Shown here in pieces: positions 890 through 10,208 of a stretch of DNA of 64,000 nucleotides. Positions within the stretch are counted from its first letter, which is position 1. Each line of letters begins with the position of its first letter. Location of the stretch: contig JAUXAG010000005.1 of the NCBI GenBank assembly GCA_030614915.1, positions 62,001-126,000 on the forward strand, given 5' to 3'. The notes under the pieces were generated by a model, which was not told where the DNA came from, made no database searches, and saw nothing but the letters and a program-made list of their open reading frames with translations. The position numbers and the translations under genes were made by a program. This stretch comes from Actinomycetes bacterium (GTDB lineage: Bacteria > Planctomycetota > Phycisphaerae > JAACET01).

Positions 890-2227
890 ATGGCTTTGAC
901 AGGACTGGCAATATTCAAGCATTTGCCCAAGACCAACTGCAAGGAGTGCGGCTTTCCGACCTGTTTGGCTTTTGCGATGAAAGTAGCAGCCGGGCAGGAG
1001 GGTCTGGATTCGTGCCCCACGATGACCGACGAGGCCCGGGCGGCGTTGAGCGCGGCCAGCGCCCCGCCGCAACGGCTGGTCAAAATCGTCGGTCCCAAAA
1101 GCGAAGTAGCCGTTGGTCAGGAAACAGTGATGTTCCGTCATGACGAGACCTTTCACAATCCGACGGGCGTGGCTATCCAGGTTTCCGATGCACTTGGCGA
1201 CGAGGAAATCAAGGCCCGCTGCCAGGCGATTAAGGCTCTGACTTTTCACCGGGTGGGTACGGATATCAGCGTGGACCTGGCGGCGGTGAAGAACGATTCG
1301 TCCGATGCGGCCAAGTTCGCTTCGGTGGCCAAGACCGTCAGCGAGCAGACCGAATTGCCGCTGCTGCTGATCAGCGCCGATGCCGCAGCCCTCAAGCAAG
1401 CTGCCCAGGGCTTGGGCGACGGGGTCAAGCCTCTCTTGGTTCCCAGCAACGGAGCCCTGGAAGGTGCGGCGGAGCTGGCCAAGACGGGCAAGTATCCGCT
1501 GTGCGTGACCGACGGCAACCTTGAGGCCTTGGCGGGCGTGAGCGAAAAACTCAGCCCCGACGTGCCGGACCTGGTGATTTCTCCGGGCGAGCAGGCGAGT
1601 CCCAAGGTAATCGAATTCCTGACCACCGCCCGTCGGGCAGCGTTGAAAAAGAAATACCGCCCGCTGGGTTTTCCGGCTTTGGCGTATGCAACGGAGTCGG
1701 ACCCGGCCAAGGCAGCTATCCGGGCCAGCTCCTATGTGAGCAGGTACGCGGGTATCGTGGTGCTTGATACGATCGAGCCTTGGGCGGTGGTGGCGGTGCT
1801 GACCACGAGGCAGAATCTTTACACCGATCCGCGAAAGCCAGTCCAGGTGGAGCCCAAACTCTACGAGATCAGCAGCCCCAGCGACAGCGATCCACTGTTG
1901 ATAACTACTAACTTTTCGCTGAGCTACTACAGCGTGGAAGGTGAGCTGACCGCGGCGAGGCTGCCGGCGAGGATTCTGGCGGTGGATACGGAAGGCACGT
2001 CGGTGCTGACGGCCTGGGCGGCGGATAAGTTTAATCCGGAGACCATCACCAAGGCCCTGAATGATTTTGAGGCCGACAAGGCTCTCAAGCACCATAAGGT
2101 GGTGATCCCCGGGCACGTGGCGGTGATTTCGGCGGGTCTGGCGGACGAATCGGGCTGGGAGGTGCTGGTAGGTCCAAAGGAGGCCTCGGGCATACCCAGC
2201 TATATTAAGAATGACTGGAAACCCTAA
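890..2227 (+). CDS. acsC: corrinoid iron-sulfur protein large subunit (AcsC, CFeSP gamma)
   Basis: This 445-residue protein is about the length of known AcsC. The N-terminus carries the [4Fe-4S] motif as C17, C20, C25 and C42 (CxxCxxxxC plus a distal Cys). A TIM-barrel region follows, and then a C-terminal cobalamin-binding domain from roughly residue 320. With AcsD it forms the CFeSP, which takes the methyl group from AcsE and delivers it to AcsB. The ATG is preceded by a GGAGGA ribosome-binding site at about 880. It lies downstream of acsB across an AT-rich spacer and upstream of its own activator gene. A minus-strand open frame of more than 400 codons covers the gene but is a composition shadow. 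Confidence 0.97.
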   Translation: MALTGLAIFKHLPKTNCKECGFPTCLAFAMKVAAGQEGLDSCPTMTDEARAALSAASAPPQRLVKIVGPKSEVAVGQETVMFRHDETFHNPTGVAIQVSDALGDEEIKARCQAIKALTFHRVGTDISVDLAAVKNDSSDAAKFASVAKTVSEQTELPLLLISADAAALKQAAQGLGDGVKPLLVPSNGALEGAAELAKTGKYPLCVTDGNLEALAGVSEKLSPDVPDLVISPGEQASPKVIEFLTTARRAALKKKYRPLGFPALAYATESDPAKAAIRASSYVSRYAGIVVLDTIEPWAVVAVLTTRQNLYTDPRKPVQVEPKLYEISSPSDSDPLLITTNFSLSYYSVEGELTAARLPARILAVDTEGTSVLTAWAADKFNPETITKALNDFEADKALKHHKVVIPGHVAVISAGLADESGWEVLVGPKEASGIPSYIKNDWKP

Positions 2228-2324
2228 AGAGACTTGGGCTTTAGTAAGTAGTTCGGCCAAGAAGCAACGGCGGATACCCCCTCAGTTCTGAATAGATTGG
2301 CCTGCCTGAGCCAAGGTGAAAAAG

Positions 2325-4265
2325 ATGGCCAAGACCTACACAGTTCTTTTTACGCCTGAGCAGGTAGAGGTACAGGTTGAGCCGGGCACCACTATCCTGG
2401 CAGCGGCAGCCAAGGCGGGGGTCTTTATCAACAGCCTCTGCGGCGGGGACGGTGTGTGCGGCAAGTGCCGGGTTATTATCCAACTGGGTGAGGCCCAGGG
2501 CGGGACGACCAACCATCTGACCCGCAAAGAGATTCAGCAGGGCTATATCCTGGCCTGCGAGGGCCAAGTGATGAGCGACCTGGTGGTTGAAGTGCCACCG
2601 GAGTCGCAGTTACGTTCGGCGGTCAAGACCGAGGACCACCCGGCCGAGCAGTTCTCCGAAACGTTCCTGATGAGGCGGTACACGCCAGCCTTGGACCCTC
2701 TTGTTAGAAAGGCTTATCTGGAGATACCACCGCCGTCGTTGGAAAACAATTTGGCGGATCTTGAACGGCTGGAATACGCCCTGAGCAAGGCCCTGGGGAC
2801 GCGGGAGTTCCAGATGGGGCTGAAGATTACTCAGCGGCTGCCGGAGCTCTTGCGCGGGGCTGACTGGAAGGTTACAGCCACCTCGGCCTATCGCGGCTCG
2901 TTGAGCGAGATTACCGAGGTCGAACCCGGGGATACCTCCCGCTGCAACTTGGCTGTAGCTGTGGATGTTGGGACCACCACGGTGATGGCTCAATTGATCG
3001 ACCTGACCACCGGCCGGGCCATGGGTGTGGCCAGCAGGTACAACTCCCAGATTCGCTGTGGGGGCGATGTTATCCGGCGAATCATATTCGCCTCGGGAGA
3101 AGAGGAGGGTCTAAGGACCCTGCAGCAGGCGGTGGTCGGGGATATCAATTCGCTGATCCAGGAGCTGCAGCAGAAATTCCGCCTGGGTTGTGCGGACATC
3201 ACCATGGTGACCGCGGCTGGCAATACGACCATGCTGCACTTTTTGCTGGGCATTCTGCCCAACTACATCCGCAAGGAACCTTACATAGGGGCGGTGTATT
3301 GTCCGCCGGCCTTTAGAGCGGCAGAGGCGGGGATAAAGATCAATGCCAGGGGGCTGGTTTACAGCCTGCCGTGCGTGAGTTCTTTCGTGGGGGCGGATAT
3401 TACAGCGGGGATTCTGGCGGTGGAGATGCACAAAGCCGAGGAGCTGACCATGTTCGTCGATATCGGTACCAACGGCGAGGTGGTCATCGGCAACAAGGAA
3501 TTTATGGTGGCGGCCAGTGCATCGGCAGGCCCGGCCTTTGAGGGAACCGACAGCCGTGATGGTATGCGGGCCTCGTCCGGAGCTATCGACCACCTGCAGA
3601 TATATAACAAGGATCGGCTGATGAGCTTTTCGACCATCGGCGATCAGGAGCCGGTGGGCATCTGCGGCACCGGGTATATCGACCTGTTGGCTGAGCTGCT
3701 CAAGACCGGTCTGATAGACAAGAGAGGCAAGCTCAACACCGAGTGCGGCTCGAAGCGTATCCGCACAGGAGACCAAGGCCAGCCCGAATACGTGGTGATC
3801 TGGGCCCGGGATTCCGGCCGGGGCAAGGACGTGGTCATTACCCAGGCGGACATCGCCAATATGCTCCGGGCCAAGGGTGCTATCTACTCGGCGGCCCAGG
3901 TGCTGTTGCGCTCGTTGGGCTTTACTTTCGAGGATGTCAAGCGGGTGATGGTGGCCGGTGGGTTTGGCTCGTCCTTGAGCCTGGAAAGCGCGGTAACCAT
4001 CGGGCTGTTGGCTGATCTGCCCCGCGAGCGGATGCAATTCGTGGGCAACGCGGCGATTACCGGTGCGGGCTTGGCGGCTATCTCCAGGGAGAAGTATATG
4101 GAGGCTAGAGAGATTGCCCAATCGATGACTTATTTCGAGCTGAGCACGGACCCGTACTTTATGGGCGAGCTGGTTTCGGCCTGTTTCTTTCCCCATACCG
4201 ATATCCAGCGGTTCCCCAGCGTGATGGGGGCCCTGGCTAAGGGGCGTTCCAAGCAGGAAGGTTAA
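2325..4265 (+). CDS. acsV: RACo-type reductive activator of the corrinoid protein (2Fe-2S ferredoxin + ASKHA domain)
   Basis: The product is about 646 residues. It starts with a plant-type [2Fe-2S] ferredoxin domain (C39, C45, C48, C78). A linker follows, and from about residue 215 an ASKHA/DUF4445 ATPase-like domain with two phosphate-loop motifs, VDVGTTTV and VDIGTNGE. RACo proteins use ATP and a low-potential electron to return inactive Co(II) CFeSP to Co(I), which fits its place between acsC and acsD. ATG 2325 is preferred because AAGGTG lies 6-7 bases upstream; GTG 2316 is a possible alternative. The stop codon overlaps the next start (TAATG), suggesting translational coupling to the cooC-like gene. 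The ASKHA family also includes other metal-protein activators, so substrate specificity is inferred from the neighbours. Confidence 0.92.
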   Translation: MAKTYTVLFTPEQVEVQVEPGTTILAAAAKAGVFINSLCGGDGVCGKCRVIIQLGEAQGGTTNHLTRKEIQQGYILACEGQVMSDLVVEVPPESQLRSAVKTEDHPAEQFSETFLMRRYTPALDPLVRKAYLEIPPPSLENNLADLERLEYALSKALGTREFQMGLKITQRLPELLRGADWKVTATSAYRGSLSEITEVEPGDTSRCNLAVAVDVGTTTVMAQLIDLTTGRAMGVASRYNSQIRCGGDVIRRIIFASGEEEGLRTLQQAVVGDINSLIQELQQKFRLGCADITMVTAAGNTTMLHFLLGILPNYIRKEPYIGAVYCPPAFRAAEAGIKINARGLVYSLPCVSSFVGADITAGILAVEMHKAEELTMFVDIGTNGEVVIGNKEFMVAASASAGPAFEGTDSRDGMRASSGAIDHLQIYNKDRLMSFSTIGDQEPVGICGTGYIDLLAELLKTGLIDKRGKLNTECGSKRIRTGDQGQPEYVVIWARDSGRGKDVVITQADIANMLRAKGAIYSAAQVLLRSLGFTFEDVKRVMVAGGFGSSLSLESAVTIGLLADLPRERMQFVGNAAITGAGLAAISREKYMEAREIAQSMTYFELSTDPYFMGELVSACFFPHTDIQRFPSVMGALAKGRSKQEG

Positions 4266-5038
4266 TGGCTATGTCTTTGAGCATTGCAGCCAGCGGCAAA
4301 GGTGGGGTGGGCAAGAGCACGCTTTGCGCCCTGTTGGTACGCTACTTTATTGAGATGGGGAAGAAGCCGGTTTTGGCGGTGGACGGTGACCCCAACTCCA
4401 GTCTGGGGGCATTGCTGGGGATGGAGCCGGAACGAAAAATCGGCGACCTTCGCGAAGATATTAACGATCCGGCCAACACTCCCAGTGGGGTTCCCAAGGC
4501 TCGGGTGTTGGAGGGCAAGCTCAACGAGATCATCCAGGAAGGGCGGGGCTTTGACCTGCTGACCATGGGGCGGGGCGAGGGGCCGGGATGCTACTGTTAT
4601 GTGAATGATTTGCTGCGGCAATTCTTGAGCCGACTCAAGAAATCATATTCAGTGGTCGTCATAGATAACGAAGCGGGGATGGAGCACCTCTCCCGGCTGA
4701 CCACCGACAACGTGGATTGTCTGATAGTGGTGAGCGAACCAACCACTCCGAGCGTTCGCACGGCCGAGCGGATACTGGAATTGGCTGACAGTCTGCCAGC
4801 CAAGATCGGGCGAAAGGCCATGGTGTTCAACAAGGTCAGGAACTCTCGAGTGGCGGACATTGTTCTGGAGCGGGCCCAGAATCTGCCGGTTTCGGCCAAC
4901 ATCCAACTTTCTCACAGCCCAGAACTGGAAGAGCTCGGCGAACGGGGGGGGAGCGTTTTTGAGCTGCCTGGTAAATTAGAAGATAACCCTCAGCTGACCA
5001 GGATCGTAGAATGGTGCCTGGACGGCGATAACCATTGA
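4265..5038 (+). CDS. cooC: CooC/AcsF-type nickel-insertion ATPase
   Basis: This 257-residue MinD/SIMIBI-type P-loop ATPase has the deviant Walker A motif GKGGVGKST at residues 11-19. The switch/Walker B region follows, with a conserved DGDPN at about 40. A Cys-Tyr-Cys pair at residues 109-111 matches the CxC that binds nickel between two CooC monomers. The family delivers Ni to the C-cluster of CODH or the A-cluster of ACS. The start overlaps the previous stop by one base (TAATG); a second in-frame ATG two codons later is also possible. In the acs operon its most likely client is AcsB or the associated CODH. Confidence 0.93.
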   Translation: MAMSLSIAASGKGGVGKSTLCALLVRYFIEMGKKPVLAVDGDPNSSLGALLGMEPERKIGDLREDINDPANTPSGVPKARVLEGKLNEIIQEGRGFDLLTMGRGEGPGCYCYVNDLLRQFLSRLKKSYSVVVIDNEAGMEHLSRLTTDNVDCLIVVSEPTTPSVRTAERILELADSLPAKIGRKAMVFNKVRNSRVADIVLERAQNLPVSANIQLSHSPELEELGERGGSVFELPGKLEDNPQLTRIVEWCLDGDNH

Positions 5039-5062: not shown

Positions 5063-6034
5063 ATGGCAGTGCCAGATGTCAAAGAAAAATGGAGCGCAAT
5101 AGTCAACACCGTAACTATCGGGGCAACCTCCGAGCAGGGCGGGACTCGGAGCAGCACGGTGACCGTTGGTGGAGCCGGTGGGCTCGGAGCCCTGAGCTTT
5201 GAAGGTCCGCTGGGCAATCGCCCGGCCATTGCCGTGGAGGTTTGGGACATCGGAGGTGATACTCTTCCGCTGGCTCTGCAGGAAGTGTACGGCGATTCGC
5301 TCAACAGCGCCGCCGACTGGGCCAAGAAGGCGGTCGAGTTCGGGGCCGAGATGATCTGCCTGAAGCTGCAGGGCACGCACCCCGATGGCGGGGACCGCTC
5401 AGCCCAGCAGGCCTGCGACGATGTCAAGGCCGTCCTTGAAGCTGTGGGCGTGCCCCTTATCGTCTGGGGCTGTGGCGTGAACGATAAGGATAACGAAGTG
5501 CTGCCCCGCTGCTGCCACACAGCCAGCGGAGAGAACTGCATTTTCGGGACCATCACCGAGAAGAACTACCGGACGCTGGTGGCGGCCTGCCTGGCGGACA
5601 AGCATAAGATATTAGCCGAGTCGCCCCTGGACATCAACATTGCCAAACAGGTGAACATCCTAGCTTCGGACGTGGGCTTTGCCCTGGAAAACATCGTTAT
5701 ATTTCCGACCACGGCTTCGCTGGGCTATGGCCTGGAGTATGTTTATTCTATAATGGAGCGGAGCCGATTGGCTGCTTTGACTGGAGATAAGCTGCTGCAG
5801 CAGCCGGTGCTGTGCAACGTGGGCTTCGAAGCCTGGCGGGCCAAGGAAGCCCGGGGCTCAGATGAGGAGGTGCCCGGCTTCGGACCGGCCCAGAAGCGAG
5901 GCCCGCTGTGGGAGGCAACCACGGCGACTAATCTGTTCCAGTCCGGGGCGGACATATTTGTCATGCGCCATCCGGAAGCCATAAGGATGCTCAACGAGTC
6001 GCTCGACGAATACTACGGACCTCGCCAAGGCTGA
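5063..6034 (+). CDS. acsD: corrinoid iron-sulfur protein small subunit (AcsD, CFeSP delta)
   Basis: This 323-residue protein has the CdhD/AcsD TIM-barrel fold. The Gly-rich start, with IGATSEQGGTRSST at about residue 20, is typical of the family. It pairs with AcsC to cap the cobalamin and helps present it to the methyltransferase. An AAAGGAG ribosome-binding site lies about 9 bases before the ATG. The gene follows the nickel ATPase by 24 bases and precedes acsE by 55, consistent with one operon. Length and sequence are normal for the family, with no frameshift. Confidence 0.96.
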   Translation: MAVPDVKEKWSAIVNTVTIGATSEQGGTRSSTVTVGGAGGLGALSFEGPLGNRPAIAVEVWDIGGDTLPLALQEVYGDSLNSAADWAKKAVEFGAEMICLKLQGTHPDGGDRSAQQACDDVKAVLEAVGVPLIVWGCGVNDKDNEVLPRCCHTASGENCIFGTITEKNYRTLVAACLADKHKILAESPLDINIAKQVNILASDVGFALENIVIFPTTASLGYGLEYVYSIMERSRLAALTGDKLLQQPVLCNVGFEAWRAKEARGSDEEVPGFGPAQKRGPLWEATTATNLFQSGADIFVMRHPEAIRMLNESLDEYYGPRQG

Positions 6035-6089
6035 AGAGTCAATCCCCCCCGGCAAGGCTTGGCCGGGTCTACCACAAGGAGGATCAGGA

Positions 6090-6878
6090 ATGTACGTGAT
6101 CGGCGAACTAATCAACGGAATGTTTTCCAACGTCAAGAAGGCTATCCAGGAGAAGGACGGGCAGGTAATCCAGGATTTGGCCAAGGCCCAGGCCGATGCC
6201 GGGGCTTACGCCTTGGACGTGAACGTGGGACCGGCTAGTCGCGACGCGGTCGGGGCCATGCTCTGGTTGGTGGAGAACATCCGCAAGGTCAGCGATATTC
6301 CCGTGGCTATCGATAATGCCAAGTGGGAAGTTATGCAAGAGATAATCCCCCAGGTGCCGGGCGAAAAGATTATTAATTCCTCCAAGGCCGATGAGGATCT
6401 TCTGGACAAGTACGTGCCTTTGGCGGTGGCAAACAATGCTTCGCTGATCGGACTGACTCTCGACCAGGCCGGCGTGCCCAACGACGTGGACAAACGGGTG
6501 GAACTGGCTGCGGCTATCCTGACCAAGTGTGCCGAGCACGGCCTGGACGTAGGCAAGCTTTTTATTGATCCGATTATTCTGCCGGTCAACGTAGCCCCGC
6601 AGCAGGCGGATAATGTTTTGCGATCTTTGGAGCAGATGAAGATGCTTAGTGATCCGGCACCGCACTTTTTGCTGGGGCTGTCGAACCTCTCGCAGAACTG
6701 CGCCAACCGCAGCCTGATCAACCGCGTTTATCTGGCCATGGCCAGGGGTTCCGGTCTGGACGCCGCGATTCTGGATCCGCTGGATAGCGAGCTAATGGAT
6801 GTAGCCATTACTACCGATTTGCTTTGCGGGGCGACCATTTATTGTGATTCGTTCCTTGAAGCTGCCCGGTCCAAGTAA
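6090..6878 (+). CDS. acsE: 5-methyltetrahydrofolate:corrinoid/iron-sulfur protein methyltransferase (AcsE)
   Basis: The 262 residues match the usual AcsE length. It is a pterin-binding TIM barrel. The DVNVG and DNAKW segments near residues 45-75 contact the pterin. The GLSNLSQ segment near residue 198 holds the Asn that hydrogen-bonds N5 of methyl-THF in the Moorella enzyme. The enzyme moves the methyl group from methyl-THF to Co(I) of the CFeSP, joining the folate branch to acetyl-CoA synthesis. A strong AAGGAGGA site precedes the ATG. MetH-type pterin domains are related, but the length and the acs context make AcsE secure. Confidence 0.96.
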   Translation: MYVIGELINGMFSNVKKAIQEKDGQVIQDLAKAQADAGAYALDVNVGPASRDAVGAMLWLVENIRKVSDIPVAIDNAKWEVMQEIIPQVPGEKIINSSKADEDLLDKYVPLAVANNASLIGLTLDQAGVPNDVDKRVELAAAILTKCAEHGLDVGKLFIDPIILPVNVAPQQADNVLRSLEQMKMLSDPAPHFLLGLSNLSQNCANRSLINRVYLAMARGSGLDAAILDPLDSELMDVAITTDLLCGATIYCDSFLEAARSK

Positions 6879-6922
6879 GCCCAAGTAAGGGGCTCGGCCG
6901 GGCAGGCAAAGGGGAAATAGCC

Positions 6923-7255
6923 ATGGATTTGAACTGTCCCGGACGCAAGCATGGCGTGCCGCCCGAGTCGAGTATCAAACGCTGCGGCAAATGTGGCAAA
7001 GAGGTGGAAATCTTTGCCGACGAGGTTTACGTCCGCTGCCATTGCGGGACTACCGTCTATGCTGAGGAGCCGCCGGCCTGCACCAAGTGGTGTCCCTCGG
7101 CCGAGCTGTGTCTGGGCAAAGTGACCAACCTCAACCAACTGCACGCCAAGCTCAGCGAGTCTGAGCGCCAAGACGCCAAGGAGTGCGTCGAGCGCATCGG
7201 CAAGATGATCGCCCGGGCCAAGGAACGACACGAAGATCATGACTCACAAGGCTAA
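6923..7255 (+). CDS. 110-residue Cys-rich zinc-ribbon-like protein in the acs operon
   Basis: I do not recognise a named family. The protein has nine or so cysteines: CxxC at about residues 21-24, CxC at about 39-41, and a C-x3-C-x5-C-like cluster at about 53-63. This suggests a zinc ribbon or Fe-S binding fold. The last ~40 residues are a charged helix (many K, R, E). It starts 44 bases after acsE with an AGGGGAA ribosome-binding site, and its end overlaps the next gene by 17 bases. That argues for an operon role, perhaps in Fe-S or metal handling for the Wood-Ljungdahl enzymes. This role is inference from position only. Confidence 0.85.
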   Translation: MDLNCPGRKHGVPPESSIKRCGKCGKEVEIFADEVYVRCHCGTTVYAEEPPACTKWCPSAELCLGKVTNLNQLHAKLSESERQDAKECVERIGKMIARAKERHEDHDSQG

Positions 7256-7895
7256 AACCCGCGAGCTGATCGAGGCAGTTTTGCGGGGCGAGAGCCCTCA
7301 AAAAAACTACCAGCAGGCCTACGAGCTGGCCCTGGCTGAGGTCCGCAAGACCCCACTGGCTGTTCTGGAGCGGCTGGGCGTGGTGAGCGAATCGCCCCAG
7401 CAGTTGAGCGTTGCTGTTCTGGGGGGAACCTTTCACGTTGATCTTGCAGCCGGTACGGTCAGAGACGACAGCGGGCAACAGATACGAGTGGCCTGGGCTA
7501 TCCTTGTGCTGCATTATTTAATCAGCCGCCCAAGTGAGCAGATTGGGGGGGGCTATATTTCCTTTATGGATATTCCGGATGCTCGCGGTTATGCCAAGCC
7601 CTACCAAGGGCGGGTAATCGAGCGTTTTCTGCATACCGCCGGTCGCGATGAAGCAGCCTTCAGGGCAGCGGCCAAGCGGCTGGGCGGCCAAGAAATCGAC
7701 CAGGCCGATGCCGCTTATGAGTTTGCGGTGTTTCCCCGGGTGCGCGTGCGTCTTCTCTGGTATCGCGGCGACGAGGAGCTCGGCCCGGGTGCCAGCTTCC
7801 TATACGAGAAGCAGATCGTTGGTATCTTTTGCGTGGAAGACATTGTGGTGATGTCGGAACTACTGGTGGGAGCCCTTTCCGCGAAGCACTCGTGA
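7239..7895 (+). CDS. DUF3786-like protein, acs-linked
   Basis: This 218-residue soluble protein resembles DUF3786, a family of unknown function that I recall from anaerobes, often near corrinoid or Wood-Ljungdahl genes. Features include the LAAGTV strand region near residue 70 and a central LHYL followed by a GGYISFMDIPDARGY stretch. The ending is a beta-rich FLYEKQIVGIFCVEDIV. No membrane segment or signal is seen. It overlaps the Cys-rich gene by 17 bases and has only a weak ribosome-binding site, so it is probably translated by coupling. A partner or chaperone role for the corrinoid protein is speculation. Confidence 0.85.
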   Translation: MTHKAKTRELIEAVLRGESPQKNYQQAYELALAEVRKTPLAVLERLGVVSESPQQLSVAVLGGTFHVDLAAGTVRDDSGQQIRVAWAILVLHYLISRPSEQIGGGYISFMDIPDARGYAKPYQGRVIERFLHTAGRDEAAFRAAAKRLGGQEIDQADAAYEFAVFPRVRVRLLWYRGDEELGPGASFLYEKQIVGIFCVEDIVVMSELLVGALSAKHS

Positions 7896-7952
7896 TTCTC
7901 CTGCTTTTCAAGATTCGGGCCGAGGACTCCAAGATTGCCAAGGATGAGCATT

Positions 7953-8750
7953 ATGAACAAATCCAAAGGTTTCACGCTAGTCGAGTTGATAGTGGTGGTC
8001 GTACTTATTTCGCTGCTCCTTATGTTTTTGATGTCTATTCCCGGGCCGCAGATGAGCAGGGAACAGGCCAACCGGGCGGTTTGTGCGACTAGGCTCAAAG
8101 GTATCGACAATGCCTCCTATTTGTATGCCAATAGCAATGGTGGTAAGTATCCCATAGGTTGGCGGCACGAAAATGACAATTGGGATGTCGCCGACAAGAG
8201 CCAGGTAACTCCCGAGGACAGCTTCGCTTTGTTGGTTCACCTGGACTATCTCCCTACCAAAATGCTGACATGCCCCGTCGTCGGAGGCGAACCTGCTGCT
8301 GACGAATGGGAGCTGGGCGGCCTTGACGGGAAGTATAAGGGTGATCCGGGTGCCGCGGCTGAAGCCTATATCCACTATGCCTATCAGGATGTGGGCGTAG
8401 GTGACGGCAAGAATTATCTGCCCTCCCCGGACCTCAACGACAACCGCCCAATTTTTGCCGACCGCGGAGAACGCCTGGCACCGAATAAAGGCAATTACCA
8501 GTTGACCGGCAACGGCAGTGCCGACCATTATTTTATGCAGAAAGGCAGTGGCTGCCGGGGTAGCCGTGAAGAACGCTATCAGAACATAATTTTGGCTGAC
8601 CATTCAGTCCAGCGGTTCCCGAGCGATTCCAGGGGTGAATGCCTAGTCGGCTATATCGACGGCGAGTTGGGCGATAATATTTACAGCGATTCGCTCGGCG
8701 AAGATGACACCTATTTGCTCAGCAGCAAGGCCCAGACGGGCACTCCCTGA
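7953..8750 (+). CDS. type IV pilin-like / DUF1559-style prepilin protein
   Basis: The N-terminus has the prepilin leader MNKSKG followed by FTLVEL, the site for cleavage and methylation by PilD. A hydrophobic helix (about residues 7-28) follows, and then a ~235-residue extracellular domain. ATG 7953 is chosen because AAGG lies 9 bases upstream and it gives a short, normal leader; ATG 7944 and TTG 7935 are in frame but less likely. Near the C-terminus a DHSVQRFPSDSRG stretch resembles the H-x9-DG-type ends of planctomycete prepilins. Such proteins occur in large paralogous sets in Phycisphaerae, which supports the taxonomic guess. It is an isolated copy, not linked to a secretion operon. Confidence 0.9.
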   Translation: MNKSKGFTLVELIVVVVLISLLLMFLMSIPGPQMSREQANRAVCATRLKGIDNASYLYANSNGGKYPIGWRHENDNWDVADKSQVTPEDSFALLVHLDYLPTKMLTCPVVGGEPAADEWELGGLDGKYKGDPGAAAEAYIHYAYQDVGVGDGKNYLPSPDLNDNRPIFADRGERLAPNKGNYQLTGNGSADHYFMQKGSGCRGSREERYQNIILADHSVQRFPSDSRGECLVGYIDGELGDNIYSDSLGEDDTYLLSSKAQTGTP

Positions 8751-8757
8751 AAAAAAA

Positions 8758-8766
8758 TGCTATAAT
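8758..8766 (+). promoter_or_regulatory. extended -10 promoter element upstream of miaB
   Basis: TGCTATAAT combines a TGn extension with a perfect -10 hexamer, just after the prepilin stop and about 50 bases before the miaB ATG. No good -35 is seen at 17-base spacing, as is usual for extended -10 promoters. Confidence 0.5.
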
Positions 8767-8816
8767 GTTTGGCGAAAGATCGGCGAAGCAAGACTAGCGG
8801 TTTTGAGTCCATAGTC

Positions 8817-10208
8817 ATGGCTGCGAAAGTACATATAACTACCTTCGGCTGTCAGATGAATAAACTGGACAGCGAGCTTGTCGCTGGTGAGTTACTGGGC
8901 GATGGTTTCGAGTTGGCTGGGCTAGCGGACGCAGCGGACGTTGTGGTTTTCAATACCTGCTCGGTCCGTCAACATGCTGAGAATCGGGTGCTGACTTGTC
9001 TGGGTCGATTGGCCAAGCAGAAGGCGCAAAGGCCGGGATTAGTTGCGGCCCTGGTGGGCTGCATGGCTCAACGGCAGGGAGCCGAACTGCTGCTGCAATT
9101 CCCCGCCTTGGATATCGTCTGCGGGCCTGGTGAGCTGCATCGGCTGAGCGGGCTTATAAAGAAGGTCCGGGCCGGGGCCTCTCAGCAATTGGCCGTGACC
9201 GAGCGGCTTCGGGCGCGACGGGAGGTGCCGGCGGGCCTGGAAGAATTGGATGTTTCTCGTCGGACTGCTAAAGGTTCCTGTAAGGCCCAGGCTTATGTGC
9301 GGGTAATGCGAGGCTGCGATAAGTTCTGCTCCTATTGCGTCGTGCCTAGCGTTCGCGGCCGAGAAATATCCCGCCCGCTGGAGCATGTGGTCGATGAGGT
9401 GCGCAGGCTCGTCGAGGCTGGCTGTATCGAAATCACCCTGCTGGGCCAGACGGTCAACTCCTACTGCTATAGCGGTGATAGCCGGGAGGTCAGCTTTGCC
9501 GAGCTGCTCCGCAAAGTCGGAGCAATTGCGGCCCTGGAGCGTTTGCGCTTCGTGACCAGTTATCCGATTGGTTTTAGCGAGGATATTTTTCGGGCCATGG
9601 CCGAGGTGCCGGCGGTGTGCAATTACCTTCATTTGCCAGCCCAGTCGGGCTCGGGTCGGATTCTGGCGGCGATGAATCGGCCCTACACTGTCCGGCAGTA
9701 TCTGGCGCTGATCGAGCAGGGCCGAGCCATCGTCCCCGATTTGTCGCTGGCTGGTGATTTCATCGTGGGCTTTCCCGGTGAGAGCGAGCAGGACTTTGAG
9801 GAGACGGTTCGACTCGTGCGGGCGGTGGGCTATAAGAATTGTTTTATCTTCAAGTACTCGCCCCGTCCGGGTACGGCTGCGGCTAAGCGTTTGAAAGATG
9901 ACGTGCCGGCAGAGGTCAAACGCCGGCGGAACAATGAGCTATTGGCTGTGCAGGAGGAGATTTCACGCGAGTTGCATCGGGCCTTTATCGGCCAAACGGT
10001 CGAGGTCCTGGTGGAAGGTCCCAGCAAGAGCGCCCGCAAAGGAAGGGCCGACCGTCGGCATCAACTAACCGGGCGAACCCGAGGCGATCATATCGTGGTT
10101 TTTGACGCATCCGGTAAAGCCGACGAACTTACCGGAAAATTGGTACACGTAAAGATCGTCGACACCTCCGCCCTGACCCTCTTTGGCGAATTAGTTGCCC
10201 CGGCCTGA
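8817..10208 (+). CDS. miaB: tRNA-2-methylthio-N6-dimethylallyladenosine synthase MiaB
   Basis: This ~463-residue methylthiotransferase adds a methylthio group to i6A37 of tRNAs. The N-terminal UPF0004 domain has the three cluster-binding cysteines C12, C48 and C82. The radical-SAM domain has CxxxCxxC at C167, C171 and C174 (RGCDKFCSYC). A C-terminal TRAM domain (about residues 390-460) binds tRNA. The LGQTVNSY motif is close to the LGQNVNSY of MiaB rather than RimO. ATG 8817 gives the standard KVHITTFGCQMN start; upstream TTG 8769 would add 16 unconserved residues. An extended -10 element precedes it. Confidence 0.95.
   Translation: MAAKVHITTFGCQMNKLDSELVAGELLGDGFELAGLADAADVVVFNTCSVRQHAENRVLTCLGRLAKQKAQRPGLVAALVGCMAQRQGAELLLQFPALDIVCGPGELHRLSGLIKKVRAGASQQLAVTERLRARREVPAGLEELDVSRRTAKGSCKAQAYVRVMRGCDKFCSYCVVPSVRGREISRPLEHVVDEVRRLVEAGCIEITLLGQTVNSYCYSGDSREVSFAELLRKVGAIAALERLRFVTSYPIGFSEDIFRAMAEVPAVCNYLHLPAQSGSGRILAAMNRPYTVRQYLALIEQGRAIVPDLSLAGDFIVGFPGESEQDFEETVRLVRAVGYKNCFIFKYSPRPGTAAAKRLKDDVPAEVKRRRNNELLAVQEEISRELHRAFIGQTVEVLVEGPSKSARKGRADRRHQLTGRTRGDHIVVFDASGKADELTGKLVHVKIVDTSALTLFGELVAPA

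Follow-up and report, generated by a model that had tools for sequence, protein, structure and literature searches.

ORF110 and a DUF3786 gene, two genes under selection at the end of an acs operon and a candidate module for upkeep of the corrinoid iron-sulfur protein

In the Wood-Ljungdahl pathway, methyl groups are carried by the corrinoid iron-sulfur protein (CFeSP), for which RACo is the known repair protein. PMC4934906 describes a [4Fe4S] cluster in CFeSP and the ATP-dependent reactivation of oxidised Co(II)-CFeSP by RACo. The two genes considered here, ORF110 and a gene of the DUF3786 family (PF12654), lie behind acsE in an operon in which RACo (AcsV) is a separate gene, and CFeSP is the proposed target of the pair as well. 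Unlike RACo, neither protein carries a [2Fe-2S] or ASKHA domain. Their identity as a RACo-type reductive activator was ruled out, since no RACo, ASKHA, or [2Fe-2S] match was found in either protein at E<=10.

The window, meaning the whole stretch of 64,000 nucleotides that was analysed (G000:C22:62001-126000), comes from a 2.56-Mb draft genome. The pair is preceded in it by acsB, acsC, acsV/RACo, cooC, acsD, and acsE, and the upstream stretch (L002) together with the window also carries cooS, a ferredoxin-like protein, and NuoE/F-like and hydrogenase-like subunits, the names cooS, NuoE/F, and hydrogenase being assigned by eye. The P-loop ATPase of the operon is presumably cooC, a name taken from operon position. 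ORF110 begins 44 bases after the end of acsE and overlaps the DUF3786 gene by 17 bases, exactly as a sequence-only reading of this DNA had placed a 110-residue Cys-rich gene and its neighbor; the same reading called the second protein DUF3786-like, which was borne out by a PF12654 match of 128.6 bits (cut-off 27) spanning profile positions 2-174 of 176. A promoter and terminator scan of 6000-8900 gave no excess over shuffled sequence. A pilin-like gene (N_methyl, window 7935-8750) lies 3' of the DUF3786 gene and is missing at that place in the sister genome L132, in which a G+C stem and, after it, a T-rich stretch were spotted by eye right 3' of the DUF3786 stop codon.

Table. Genes of the acs operon in the window, with the matches or values that support each assignment (dN/dS from comparison with the sister genome)
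Feature	Position	Strand	Evidence
acsC, corrinoid iron-sulfur protein large subunit	890..2227	+	NF003195 E 1.8e-151; PF04060 FeS domain residues 12-43
acsV / RACo reductive activator	2316..4265	+	RACo_C_ter 7.7e-95; NF040756 5.7e-199 (under its curated cut-off of 800)
cooC-like P-loop ATPase	4265..5038	+	CbiA/ParA families
acsD, corrinoid iron-sulfur protein small subunit	5063..6034	+	NF003376 E 1e-112
acsE-like methyl-H4F:corrinoid methyltransferase	6090..6878	+	PRK07535 domain model 6.5e-77; PF00809 1.3e-17
ORF110, eight-cysteine zinc-ribbon-like protein, 110 aa	6923..7255	+	8 invariant Cys; dN/dS 0.12
DUF3786 protein, 218 aa	7239..7895	+	PF12654 E 2.5e-37; dN/dS 0.21; AlphaFold2 pLDDT 90.9

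The locus was compared with two relatives. The sister genome L132 (DAOVKO010000008.1, genome G246) falls in the same phylum group as the window genome although its public title reads Actinomycetes, and one of these placements is probably wrong; it is ~90% identical in nucleotides across the operon and retains the gene order and the 17-base overlap. The dN/dS values of ORF110 and the DUF3786 gene in this comparison are given in the table, and those of acsC, acsV, cooC, acsD, and acsE were 0.05-0.18. Judged by their sequence divergence, ORF110 and the DUF3786 gene are real genes under purifying selection. The second relative, L133 (genome G031, a 'Candidatus Brocadiia' MAG), belongs to a distant lineage and has the order acsC-acsV-cooC-acsD-acsE-ORF110-DUF3786 with a 1-base overlap; the pair is followed there by a Pta-N/BioD-like AAA_26-DRTGG protein and by further ORFs taken, on inspection by eye, to be FolD and MetF. 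Protein identity between the window and L133 was 38% for ORF110 and 43% for DUF3786, and 56-66% for AcsC, AcsD, and AcsE. The stretch between acsE and ORF110 is ~200 bases longer in L132 (L132:9439-9684), where it contains an inverted repeat, than the 44 bases of the window.

For the DUF3786 protein of the window, AlphaFold2 gave a confident single-domain model (pTM 0.84). A Foldseek search of the PDB with this model returned 0 of 687 matches at E<=0.001, VIA-align 2 gave middling scores (Z of at most 6.2, across 90 residues that lie mostly within 104-218), and function from the fold was therefore dropped as a line of argument. The PDB sequence search gave nothing for DUF3786. In the alignment of the family, Y93 is the one invariant column, and no Cys is conserved. 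The window protein resembles PF12654 members in its full-length match; it differs in lying beside acs, which most of the phylum's members do not, and in having no Fe-S domain, where ten members carry one as a fusion. These fusions all belong to f48, a family that we take to be Brocadiaceae-like, where a 4Fe-4S domain recognized by its Cys pattern is N-terminal to DUF3786 in 10 of 10 sampled genomes (10 of the 33 DUF3786 rows). When the Fe-S domain of one member was scanned, the AcsC model was the best NCBIfam match (1.7e-17 versus 1.9e-4 for RnfB). In the DUF3786 tree, from which one short fragment (L025) was left out, the acs-linked proteins grouped with those of G041 and G445 (support 99/95), and all five genomes of this five-member clade carry acs genes.

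We then asked how the two families are distributed across 246 genomes of the phylum. Genomes were taken as acs-positive when they had an AcsC/AcsD (PF03599) match at E<1e-15, which gave 33 out of 81 matching at E<=0.001; the rest, with weaker matches, are by frame length probably methionine synthase and similar proteins, and G089, with a match of 9.8e-15, was counted as acs-negative under this cut. The families did not occur mainly in genomes without acs, the pattern that the sequence-only reading had named as telling against a pathway role: inside the phylum, DUF3786 was found in 24 of the 33 acs-positive versus 0 of the 213 acs-negative genomes (Fisher p 3e-26, a guide only, as the genomes are related), and ORF110-like proteins at E<1e-5, which mix several subfamilies, some of them fused to other domains, in 29/33 versus 0/213. 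These 29 genomes were counted from 44 with matches at E<=0.01, and the acs-negative G047 has a match of 2e-5. The four acs-positive genomes with no ORF110-like match are 73-83% complete. DUF3786 was missing from 9/33 acs-positive genomes, including well-assembled genomes of family f76 (94-96% complete), so DUF3786 is dispensable.

Physical linkage of the pair to acs is much rarer. The count covered 22 acs clusters, namely 17 of 20 acs stretches with a gene visible after acsE, together with those of G445, Acetoanaerobium, the window, L132, and L133; L184, L195, and L197, which show no gene after acsE, were left out. The pair directly follows acsE in 3/22 (window, L132, and L133) and in 0/17 of the other stretches with a visible downstream gene, and since it stands there in just these three, it was ruled out as a core component of the CODH/ACS cluster. 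When DUF3786 genes were required to share a contig with a PF03599 match no more than 20 kb away, the count was 2/30 (G000 and G031), and contig breaks may hide more. The earlier argument that tight packing suggests a pathway role thus held in part: the packing is real and the families track acs in the phylum, but the packing is lineage-specific. Besides L132, the AcsC, AcsD, AcsE, and AcsV proteins of G031 are the nearest to those of the window among the loci compared, and the linkage was therefore counted as one origin; it probably arose once and was then inherited or moved with the operon. As the 16 same-class genomes listed in the PF03599 search had no strong AcsC/AcsD match, it is plausible that the operon reached the window lineage by transfer. 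A single origin would also suit a pair that came to lie behind acsE through an ancestral chance event and was kept for an unrelated reason, as would the related DUF3786 of G445, which is on a different contig from its acs cluster, and the extra bases in front of ORF110 in L132. However, the gene order was kept despite the divergence of the proteins, and the co-occurrence of the families with acs spans the phylum; we regard such hitchhiking as improbable.

In families f76 and f48, the acs clusters contain further genes of note. A ClpP-family protease gene lies between acsB and acsC (L179:3945-4565 and L186:3033-3641; PF00574, E 3e-68 and 2e-67), and ORFs matched by size only occupy this position in L178, L180, L188, L189, and L191. 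A 4HBT-type thioesterase gene follows acsE (L179:10980-11381 and L186:10439-10834; PF13279), with similar ORFs, 4HBT-type by eye, in L178, L180, L188, L189, L191, and L196. This thioesterase is a possible acetyl-CoA-releasing partner.

ORF110 has nine Cys, of which eight (C5, C21, C24, C39, C41, C53, C57, and C63) are invariant in 16/16 aligned relatives, as are CPG and W56, giving the family pattern CPG...CxxC...Cx(1-2)C...Cx3WCx5C. With these eight Cys and the CPG and WC motifs, ORF110 is by sequence a member of an eight-cysteine CPG family whose proteins are stand-alone or N-terminal to rubrerythrin, 4Fe-4S, and HD domains. It shares all eight Cys with them, but is a stand-alone protein with a helical tail and CxC spacing, and it lies in an acs operon instead of hcp/ferredoxin surroundings. 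The eight Cys would suit two putative metal sites. No Pfam or NCBIfam family matched ORF110 over its cut-off, its AlphaFold2 model was of low confidence (pLDDT 66.8), and in the PDB sequence search its matches, zinc-ribbon and ferredoxin-like, were all weak. The central CxxC...C(x)C ribbon weakly matches the zinc ribbon of RNA polymerase subunit P/Rpo12, from which ORF110 differs by four further invariant Cys; assignment to subunit P was rejected (18.9 bits versus an equivalog cut-off of 89).

The relatives of ORF110 keep a different company. In a rubrerythrin (L105), a ferredoxin-type protein (L103), and HD proteins (4/5 scanned), they make up the N-terminal domain, and others adjoin an FrdX-like 4Fe-4S protein and, at several loci, hcp (by eye), with a DUF2249-DUF438-hemerythrin protein also among the neighbors. 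Such surroundings, in which flavodiiron proteins occur as well, fit the view that the two proteins belong to general anaerobic redox-stress defense and are co-expressed with acs in one lineage, the pathway being sensitive to O2 and NO, with no specific action on CFeSP; PMC1274295 describes hcp and frdX as core targets of HcpR in nitrosative stress, and that most DUF3786 genes are not near acs fits as well. However, a plain anaerobe trait predicts DUF3786 in acs-negative genomes that carry the anaerobe marker NrdD, a control separating the acs link from anaerobic life that is imperfect, as NrdD also occurs in facultative organisms. With 49 genomes used at E<1e-60 (from 93 with matches), DUF3786 was found in 0/23 acs-negative NrdD-positive genomes (p 9e-9 by genome and 7e-5 by family), and ORF110-like matches at E<1e-5 likewise in 0/23; by family, DUF3786 was present in 13/17 acs-positive families versus 0/11 families of NrdD-positive acs-negative genomes. 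The AcsC-type Fe-S domain fused to DUF3786 also points to the pathway. We consider the redox-stress explanation somewhat unlikely, with a sizeable minority chance of being right.

Among the 14 control genomes, the methanogens M. jannaschii and M. acetivorans had a CdhD match but no PF12654 match. A scan of named genomes returned four relatives, all of them near. Outside the phylum, the analysis covered one acetogen record with both DUF3786 and acs. In that record, Acetoanaerobium noterae NZ_CP154629.1 (2.6 Mb, filed as a plasmid), DUF3786 is not near acs, and the full acs cluster does not hold the ORF110-DUF3786 pair. The record also encodes a 178-aa protein with a C-terminal AcsC-type 4Fe-4S domain (L143:9675-10211; PF04060, 1.5e-12), whose gene is flanked by valS and a cysteine-desulfurase-like gene, both named by eye. 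Helicobacter is not known to carry acs genes. Because a table in PMC12666383 has HP0386 of Helicobacter as a DUF3786 protein, no exclusive link between DUF3786 and acs is claimed beyond the phylum. Our literature search returned no result for PF12654, DUF3786 solely as this table entry, and nothing specific on either gene.

Taken together, we tentatively favor the explanation that ORF110 and DUF3786 form a lineage-specific accessory module maintaining the corrinoid iron-sulfur protein AcsC/AcsD, at a probability of roughly 0.38. The two genes, the last of a CODH/ACS operon variant, would be co-translated as a module; DUF3786 would be the part that docks on CFeSP, or on a neighboring step, the metal or redox site that protects or repairs the Fe-S and cobalt centers would come from ORF110, and the pair would work alongside RACo, with RACo performing the ATP-driven Co(II) reduction. 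For this mechanism, we infer the binding of the two proteins to each other or to CFeSP, metal binding by ORF110, and the repair or protection role. In its favor are the arrangement of the overlapping genes, shared by two lineages, the purifying selection on both, their co-occurrence with acs in the phylum, the f48 fusion, the five-member DUF3786 clade from acs-carrying genomes, and the redox and stress company of the ORF110 relatives. Counting against it are the rare linkage and its probable single origin, the low-confidence ORF110 model, the 9/33 acs-positive genomes without DUF3786, the methanogens without PF12654, the Helicobacter table entry, the absence of conserved Cys in DUF3786, and the absence of a functional fold match. 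An earlier suggestion that the two proteins handle Fe-S or metals, or maintain CFeSP, agrees with the AcsC-type fusion and the eight invariant Cys of ORF110, the role itself being putative.

The module might also serve another part of the Wood-Ljungdahl pathway, either the folate/methyl branch or the maturation of ACS/CODH metal centers; DUF3786 would then be a scaffold or a small enzyme. The families co-occur with the pathway as a whole, and the pair in L133 precedes the AAA_26-DRTGG protein and the putative FolD and MetF. On the other hand, the operon already has a CooC-type maturation ATPase, and the AcsC-type Fe-S fusion of DUF3786 together with the position next to acsE favors the corrinoid protein as the target. 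We judge a role at another step unlikely; this and the redox-stress explanation are nevertheless close rivals of CFeSP upkeep. A stronger form of the CFeSP explanation, rather doubtful as it stands, is an unrecognized dedicated maintenance system beside RACo, with DUF3786 as the docking domain, self-sufficient in f48 through its AcsC-type Fe-S fusion, and ORF110 as its metal or redox partner.

The pair is a real, selected two-gene addition to the acs operon, its families are tied to acs in this phylum, and it probably helps to maintain the pathway. It would be a second accessory module tied to acs besides RACo, with a confident DUF3786 model that has no clear PDB match. If true, a CFeSP maintenance system would be the first function for DUF3786. 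The pair is thus a testable candidate for protecting or repairing the Wood-Ljungdahl pathway and provides a first functional hypothesis for DUF3786.
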